Of a DNA stretch of 64,000 bases, positions 62,558 through 64,000 are shown piece after piece. The DNA comes from Protoeuglena noctilucae (lineage: Eukaryota > Chlorophyta > Pedinophyceae > Marsupiomonadales > Marsupiomonadaceae): contig OY253668.1 in assembly GCA_958009085.1 (NCBI GenBank), positions 2,084,295-2,148,294 on the forward strand, given 5' to 3'. The number at the start of each line of letters is the position of its first letter. The first letter of the stretch is position 1. Position numbers and translations under genes: made by a program. The notes below the pieces were generated by a model. The model worked only from the letters and a program-made list of their open reading frames with translations. It ran no database searches and had not been told where the DNA came from.

Positions 62558-63607
62558 TCACAAAAGCGGGCGCACCGCGGCCGGCTTGGGCTGCGGAGCG
62601 GGCTTCGCCGGTGCCGCATGGGGCTGCAGGGCGGCTGCGGCGGCTGCGGCCGCGACGGTGGGGTGAGCCGCGGCCTCCTCCCCTTGAACCGTGCGCACGG
62701 TGACGACGCCCACTGCGGGGCGGGCATGGCGATGCGCGGCGGTGGGTGGGGGTCGAACAGAGCAGGCCACCGTTCCACGACCGTCGCGCGGGGTGCCTAC
62801 CCAGCCACTCACCGTTCTGTGTGGGCTTGACGCCCCACTCCGATAGCCTCGCCATGACGAACCCCACCAGCTTGTCCCGCGCGGCGCTCCCCATGCCCTT
62901 GACGTGCTCGTTGAAGGCCCACTCATAGTACACGGCTAGCCGCATTTTGAGGCCGTTCTCCGGGCACTGCTGCTTGCGCACCGACACGCCGCCCCCGAAG
63001 CTGGAGGGGTCCTGGGGGCGCGGGCAGAGGAGGCGATGGGCGAGACCTGCCTGGCCGGGGCACCACCCGCCCCTCCCCGCCCCCACCTGCGCCATTGCCC
63101 TGGCAGGACCGCATCTGCGCCCCGAAGCCCCCCTCACTGACCCCCCTCGCTGCCCGCACCTTGGCAGTGAATTCCTGCAGCGCCGCGAGCAGTCGGTCGA
63201 AGATGGCCGGGGGCGTGTCCACGTCCACCCAGATGGCGAACTCGTCCCACTTGTTGCCGCTGATGCTGCAGTTGATGACCACCTCCGAGAAGAGCACCAC
63301 GTTGGGCCAGAAGTAGAGCTGCTGCTGGGAGTCCTGGAGCACTTGGGACGAGAGGAGTGGCGCGCGGTGAGCGGGGGGCACGCATCGGGCGGGCGAACCC
63401 ACCCACCGATGCCGTCCATGGGCCCAGGCATTGCAGTCGTGGCACGTGCACGCGCGTCCCACCGGTGCTGAAGAGCCGCATCTCCTTGACCTTAAACCAC
63501 TGGCCTCTCACGATGATCGAGTCCTCAACGTCGAAGGGGTGGACCGTGAAGTGGACCAGCATGATCTCGAAGATGCGCTGTAAGGTGCCACCAAAGACGA
63601 ACGTGAA
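62558..63607 (-). pseudogene. MscS-like mechanosensitive channel, N-terminal part cut off at the telomere
   Basis: The coding strand enters from the right at TFVFGGTLQRIFEIM, matching the conserved SFVFG region near the end of the pore domain in plant MSL channels. It continues with VHPFDVEDSIIVRGQWFKV, EMRLFSTG, LYFWPNVVLFSEVVINC, DEFAIWVDVDTPPAIFDRL and RLAVYYEWAFNEHVKGMG. These form the MscS beta domain and the cytoplasmic alpha/beta domain. The protein ends in an Ala/Pro-rich tail, stop at 62558-62560. All N-terminal membrane helices and the pore helix are missing: coding homology runs to within about 10 bases of the first telomeric repeat. I call it a truncated gene. It may be intact in another allele or locus, or the end may be misassembled. 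Confidence 0.75.
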
Positions 63608-64000
63608 GGGTTAGGGTAAGGTAAGGTTAGGTTTTAGGTAGGGTTAGGCAGGTTTAGGTAGTTTTTTTTTGGGTAGGTTTTAGGTTTAGGGTTAGGTAGT
63701 TTTTTTGGTAGGGTCAGGCAGTTTTAGGGTTAGGGTCAGGCTCAGGGGTTAGGGTTAGATTAGTTTTTGGTTAGGTTAGGGTTAGGTTAGGGTTAGGGTA
63801 GGGTTAGGGTTAGGGTTAGGGTAAGGGTTAGGGTTAGGGTTAGGGTAGGGTTAGGGTAGGGTTAGGGTTAGGGTTAGGGTTAGGGTTAGGGTTAGGGTTA
63901 GGGTTAGGGTTAGGGTTAGGGTTAGGGTTAGGGTTAGGGTTAGGGTTAGGGTTAGGGTTAGGGTTAGGGTTAGGGTTAGGGTTAGGGTTAGGGTTAGGGT
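63608..64000 (+). repeat. Telomere, (TTAGGG)n, with a degenerate proximal zone
   Basis: From about 63790 to the window end the sequence is almost pure TTAGGG read toward the right, the correct orientation for a right chromosome end. The inner 180 bases are degenerate (TTAGG, TTTAGG, TAAGG and TAGGG variants) with T runs at 63661-63670 and 63697-63703. No subtelomeric satellite separates the array from the MscS exon. Confidence 0.97.

Follow-up and report, generated by a model that had tools for sequence, protein, structure and literature searches.

A telomere that begins inside an exon of an MscS-like channel gene at a chromosome end of the green alga Protoeuglena noctilucae

The window is the last 64 kb (C1:2084295-2148294) of C1, a contig that spans 2,148,294 bp and has TTAGGG repeats at either end. 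C1 is one of the 26 contigs (C1 to C26; 26,325,671 bases) of the assembly of the alga; L and R denote the left and right end of a contig, and the end of the window is C1R. There, the remainder of an MSL10-like gene abuts the telomere. The exons and introns of this fragment were placed by hand, and the positions are window coordinates:

62813-63011, minus strand: exon C, cytosolic domain, followed by a GTGAGT donor (hand splicing)
63012-63159, minus strand: intron B-C (GTGCGGGC...GCCCCCAG), GT-AG, hand-placed
63160-63341, minus strand: exon B, beta-domain (hand splicing, Pfam)
63342-63462, minus strand: intron A-B (GTGGGACG...GTCCCAAG), GT-AG, hand-placed
63463-63607, minus strand: exon A (FTFVFGGTLQRIFEIMLVHFTVHPFDVED...) of the MSL10-like gene, cut short, 5′ part missing (hand splicing, MSL10 match, paralog exon)
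63605-63611, no strand: breakpoint, where the last gene codon, Phe at 63605-63607, meets GGG/TTAGGG (sequence, hand splicing)
63611-63861, plus strand: degenerate proximal telomere zone with TTAGG, TAGGG, TAAGG, TCAGG and runs of T5 to T9 (sequence)
63862-64000, plus strand: near-perfect distal (TTAGGG)n up to the contig end (sequence)

Spliced, the three exons with their GT-AG introns removed encode 175 residues without a single stop codon. The GC content at codon positions 1, 2 and 3 is 0.57, 0.36 and 0.92 in the exons, compared to 0.73 and 0.78 in the introns, and therefore, the fragment is coding sequence. Arabidopsis MSL10 matches it with an E value of 4.5e-12, aligned from MSL10 residue 552, and the Pfam profile of the MscS beta-domain (PF00924) scores 22.8 bits against a cut-off of 20.2. 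The unspliced frames gave no Pfam match at all, and C1R is not listed in a six-frame search of the genome with PF00924 at E ≤ 1, which missed the fragment because an intron splits the domain. The upstream transmembrane helices are absent from the fragment and were found in the assembly only in a paralog on C13. Exon A, with FTFVFGGTLQRIFEIMLVHFTVHPFDVED, presumably keeps most of the pore-lining helix, judged by the helix limits of E. coli MscS. What is left at C1R is thus predicted to be a dead 3′ remnant that encodes no working channel, and its intact codons suggest no decay so far. None of 210 candidate relatives in a large protein database reached E ≤ 1e-5.

The fragment is single copy, in that no second copy at the DNA level was found in the 26.3-Mb assembly. 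At the protein level, the genome has nothing closer to it than the paralog on C13, with 42, 51, and 54% identity in three stretches and exon ends in common; three further MscS-domain loci lie on C19, C1, and C3. In the paralog, the counterpart of exon A extends about 41 codons upstream of FIFG. Because this longer exon has the same exon end, the C1R telomere would sit inside an exon, a placement for which the conserved exon end, and no intact allele, is the basis. A query of 318 residues from the paralog (5′ half and pore exon) gave seven matches at E ≤ 10, six on C13 and one the C1R fragment itself. A sequence-only reading of the window had already let the telomere begin inside a conserved MscS-like exon, and the cut at about 63607, the MSL10 match, and the longer paralog exon confirm this. 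It had further described a frame that is coding up to the telomere, which holds, but the 158-aa open frame at 63134-63610 runs through an intron, and the exon is 63463-63607. Its statement that all membrane helices are gone is right for the upstream helices but not for the pore-lining helix, most of which we take to be retained. The check it proposed, a genome search for the missing 5′ half or an intact allele, gave no match in the assembly except the diverged C13 paralog.

At the breakpoint, a telomere-compatible AGGG (63607-63610) precedes the repeat, and base 63607 doubles as a base of the last codon. Beyond this codon, the gene frame continues with CCC and meets a TAA within the telomere. 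AGGG is all that is visible of a possible microhomology at C1R. Both the tract and the degenerate zone are the longest among the 40 telomeric ends of C1 to C23, the variant zone measuring 255 nt if counted from 63607. A chance origin of the layout is ruled out by 390 nt of telomere-type repeat at the contig end and a 145-nt exon that matches MSL10. A retrotransposon was also considered as the cause and rejected: none of the 21 reverse-transcriptase matches in the genome lies near C1R, and two lie near other ends (C7L and C20R).

Inspection of both ends of C1 to C23 revealed a telomere at 40 of 46 ends, the six without one being C3R, C8L, C10R, C16L, C19L, and C20L; neither end of C24 nor the single inspected end of C25 and of C26 has a telomere. 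If the six telomere-free ends of C1 to C23 are unjoined pieces, there may be about 20 chromosomes. C26 (100,950 bp) carries an rbcL of the green type, as judged by eye, which points to a photosynthetic green alga. C24 (15,866 bp) is rich in a G-rich satellite with units like GGCGGTTGGGTGTGTGGAGTGG, found at both of its ends and alongside a long run of T near 4.3 kb. The reverse-transcriptase matches are spread over 13 contigs of the whole genome and are mostly internal (e.g., C5:898k, C6:399k, C15:499k, C15:691k, C17:497k, C20:483k, C19:124-149k, and C8:122-147k). By analogy to Chlorella, for which LINE-rich centromeres are described (PMC11005252), those on nuclear contigs could mark LINE-rich centromeres.

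All 40 telomeric ends are built on one plan, in which ordinary DNA is followed by a degenerate repeat zone (32 to 255 nt; median, 100.5) and then by nearly perfect TTAGGG, with tracts of 204 to 394 nt (median, 255). At 21 of the 40 ends, the 400 bp next to the telomere have no match to the other 39, in a comparison that covered telomeric ends only and in which the right ends of C3 to C18 were represented by 1.4 kb and the ends of C19 to C23 by 0.7 kb. A shared subtelomeric element is present at C4L, C4R, C6L, C11L, C12L, C12R, C14R, C15L, C16R, and C20R and absent from C1R. It looks retrotransposon-like by eye, with a possible zinc-knuckle frame at C14R, and has no Pfam match; the position at which the telomere cuts it differs from end to end, except for the pair C4R/C6L. 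A second subtelomeric repeat family, seemingly arranged in tandem, occurs at C5L, C6R, C13R, and C14L with 72 to 89% identity between and within ends. C4R and C6L have the same junction and, in the 370 bp leading up to it, a sequence identity of 99.2%, and their tracts are unrelated beyond the first ~15 nt (similarity rank 421 of 780 pairs). C3L and C23L, in turn, have the first 29 nt of their tracts in common next to unrelated flanking DNA, be it by copying or by chance.

C1R is not the only end at which a telomere starts inside a gene. The junction frames of 19 of the 40 ends were compared with Pfam, and matches above the cut-off were obtained at three only, C1R, C3L, and C5R; C1L had a WD40 match just under the cut-off, C9L a weaker one, and the others nothing usable. 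At C3L, the telomere starts inside an exon of a copy of V-ATPase subunit a (PF01496, positions 708 to 814 of 815). An almost full-length gene for this subunit (profile positions 2 to 814) is found at C18:6202-9201, about 6 kb from the C18L telomere, and the C3L copy (388-654) is 92% identical to it over 402 bp. One of the C18 matches spans a TGA, which is possibly intronic. At C5R, the telomere starts inside an MCU copy (profile positions 120 to 176 of 177; under the Pfam cut-off in the unspliced genome search), and a longer copy lies on C3.

The overlap between old sequence and telomere was scored wherever an uninterrupted copy of the cut DNA exists at another end, which gave 12 break events with C4R and C6L taken as a single event. 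The overlap is 5 nt at C5L, 4 nt at C15L, 3 nt at C3L, C14L, and C21R, 2 nt at C6R and C11L, and 0 nt at C12L, C12R, C16R, C20R, and C4R/C6L. Hence, 7 of 12 events have an overlap of at least 2 nt (range, 2 to 5). Random breaks in the same DNA at random phase have a mean overlap of 0.74 and reach at least 2 nt in 17.5% of cases, so that P = 0.0017 for the count of events with at least 2 nt and P = 0.002 for the summed overlap (22). The 5 nt at C5L were read by eye against an uninterrupted 31-bp copy at C12R, which agrees at 30 of 31 positions. C6R was retained despite an overall copy identity of 78 to 79%, on the grounds that its final 30 bases agree with C5L. If these least certain events are left out, the P value of the count is 0.006 without C5L (11 events), 0.0056 without C6R (11 events), and 0.020 without both (10 events), and that of the sum without both is 0.029. 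C4L and C13R were excluded from the count, their uninterrupted copies being only 77 to 78% identical, with mismatches at the junction. Five of the 12 measured breaks have no overlap, and three of these have 1, 2, or 7 unexplained bases; under a looser reading, with TGAGGG as a variant unit, the overlap at C16R becomes 3. In yeast, telomerase is stated to be capable of initiating with 3 to 6 bp annealed to its template (PMC5550746), and the overlap excess at the 12 breaks would fit priming by telomerase.

The proximal zone differs from the distal part in its content of canonical repeats: over the 40 ends, TTAGGG covers 33% of the former and 97% of the latter. In 20-nt steps from the junction, the canonical cover is 0.38, 0.24, 0.30, 0.40, 0.64, 0.77, and 0.91, rising to 0.99 at 180 to 200 nt. 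Of the 40 ends, 24 have T-runs of at least 5 nt in the proximal zone, and no end has such a run in the distal zone. The recurring odd units are TTAG-T(5-9)-GG, TCAGG, and TAAGG, and the repeats are near perfect beyond ~100 to 150 nt. The spectrum of odd units is common to all ends, and end-specific spectra are not supported (760 versus 776.8; P = 0.64). Adjacent identical odd units are no more frequent than after shuffling (31 versus 36.1), and repeated unit pairs (54 versus 45.5; P = 0.06) and triplets (9 versus 4.7; P = 0.03) within an end are slightly above expectation. Furthermore, the tracts of C4R and C6L are only typically alike next to near-identical flanks, which means that renewal of the zone outpaces the divergence of the DNA beside it.

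In Arabidopsis, degenerate repeats lie beside the chromosome and perfect ones at the tip, an arrangement attributed mainly to decay with slippage and local homogenisation (PMC11406999). The alga has the same arrangement, but it has neither an excess of adjacent identical odd units nor an end-specific unit spectrum. Of 709 Chlamydomonas telomere repeats, 636 (about 90%) are canonical, and variants are few (PMC6549138). On balance, the data favour low-fidelity synthesis at a new telomere over old decayed repeats as the origin of the telomere starts. Against this count the pair and triplet excess and the 29 nt that C3L and C23L have in common, and base-calling error would also give one spectrum at every end. 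It is imaginable, if on the doubtful side, that most ends are individually healed breaks and that the telomerase works in two modes, synthesizing the first ~100 nt with low fidelity (unit slippage, T-runs, TCAGG) and faithful TTAGGG thereafter. On that two-mode reading, it is the act of healing that the degenerate zone would document, and not the decay of an old telomere. Provided that the two-zone telomere is real, the 40 ends of one genome would show, in a natural setting, how telomerase begins its work on broken DNA.

For C1R itself, we consider it quite probable that the chromosome was truncated terminally and healed by de novo telomere addition within the gene. This best reading draws on the exon comparison with the paralog, on the missing 5′ half, and on the common layout together with the microhomology excess at other ends; the break, telomerase as the agent, and the extension to most ends are what we infer from them. 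A break or resection inside the MSL10-like gene would have removed the right terminal DNA of C1, telomerase would have paired with a few G-rich bases of the newly exposed 3′ terminus (...AAGG/GGG), and a new telomere would have been built directly on the exon. This would have left the dead 3′ fragment, with the C13 paralog and three other MscS loci remaining in the genome. Most ends of the alga were apparently made in this way, by loss and re-capping wherever telomerase can prime, at spare gene copies or at subtelomeric repeats. The sequence-only reading had also seen a break healed by a telomere within the gene, which agrees with our best reading, but this is not a lone case of an end without subtelomere: with 21 of 40 ends matching none of the others, such ends are common here.

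The broken end could instead have been joined to, or copied from, the telomere of another chromosome (telomere capture or break-induced replication). Whole ends are copied at times, as exemplified by the near-identity of C4R and C6L up to their junction (99.2% over 370 bp), and the 29-nt tract start common to C3L and C23L beside unrelated DNA points in the same direction, unless it arose by chance. However, a captured telomere should bring along the variant pattern of its donor, and from the junction onward, the C1R pattern matches none of the other 39. The longest strings common to the C1R zone and the other tracts (median, 35 nt; maximum, 45 nt, with C9R) are located far inside the zone, the eight longest starting at zone positions 171 to 178, among mostly canonical repeats. 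Nor is there unique DNA of other telomeric ends before the C1R junction, and we therefore regard capture as unlikely. About as unlikely is the insertion of the fragment at a subtelomere as an old, duplicated piece of a gene, so that no complete local gene was cut, a history that would be compatible with healing. Indeed, the fragments at C3L and C5R have longer copies elsewhere, and therefore, duplicated pieces do reach ends. The C1R fragment, by contrast, has no second copy at the DNA level, and since its closest relative is a 42 to 54% identical paralog with common exon ends, it is not a recent copy. In any case, duplicated piece or not, the telomere at C1R was added within an exon.

More improbable still is an assembly artefact, in which telomere reads were misjoined or the degenerate zone is a consensus error. 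One odd-unit spectrum at every end is what systematic base-calling error would produce, and since 6 of 46 ends are telomere-free, the assembly is unfinished. The layout, however, is identical at all 40 telomeric ends, and the junction overlaps are above chance. Moreover, the odd units are on the side of the junction (33% canonical) and not in the distal part (97%), where we would expect a consensus to be worst.

With healing as the preferred reading for C1R, the data suggest that a photosynthetic eukaryote loses and renews its chromosome ends so frequently that about half of them are without a common subtelomere. The cutting of genes may then be a side effect of end renewal where a paralog can stand in. 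In the literature searched, the coverage of which leaves many journals outside, we found no report of a green alga with most ends of this form. Telomere healing as such is already known from Plasmodium falciparum and Magnaporthe and has been proposed for Auxenochlorella B05; here, the layout is the ordinary form of an end.

In Magnaporthe oryzae, MoTeR truncation and de novo telomere formation are described, with one shown case seeded by a single T (PMC7367193). As in the alga, a terminal element is truncated and then re-capped, but the Magnaporthe case depends on a telomere-targeted retrotransposon, whereas here a shared element is present at some ends and not at C1R. In P. falciparum, 5 of 28 reference ends have hallmarks of healing, 4 of them inside truncated genes (PMC5550746). 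Both organisms have telomere repeats fused into the coding regions of truncated genes without telomere-associated repeats. In P. falciparum, however, healing departs from a standard subtelomere, whereas the last 400 bp of 21 of the 40 ends studied here have nothing in common with the others. For the trebouxiophyte Auxenochlorella UTEX 250-A, which has TTAGGG telomeres, a de novo telomere on part of chromosome B05 is proposed (PMC12636532). It resembles our case in that a green alga with TTAGGG telomeres would have received a new telomere at an internal break. In Auxenochlorella, this is one event on an extra chromosome copy that was found by coverage, whereas the ends of the alga studied here generally have this form.
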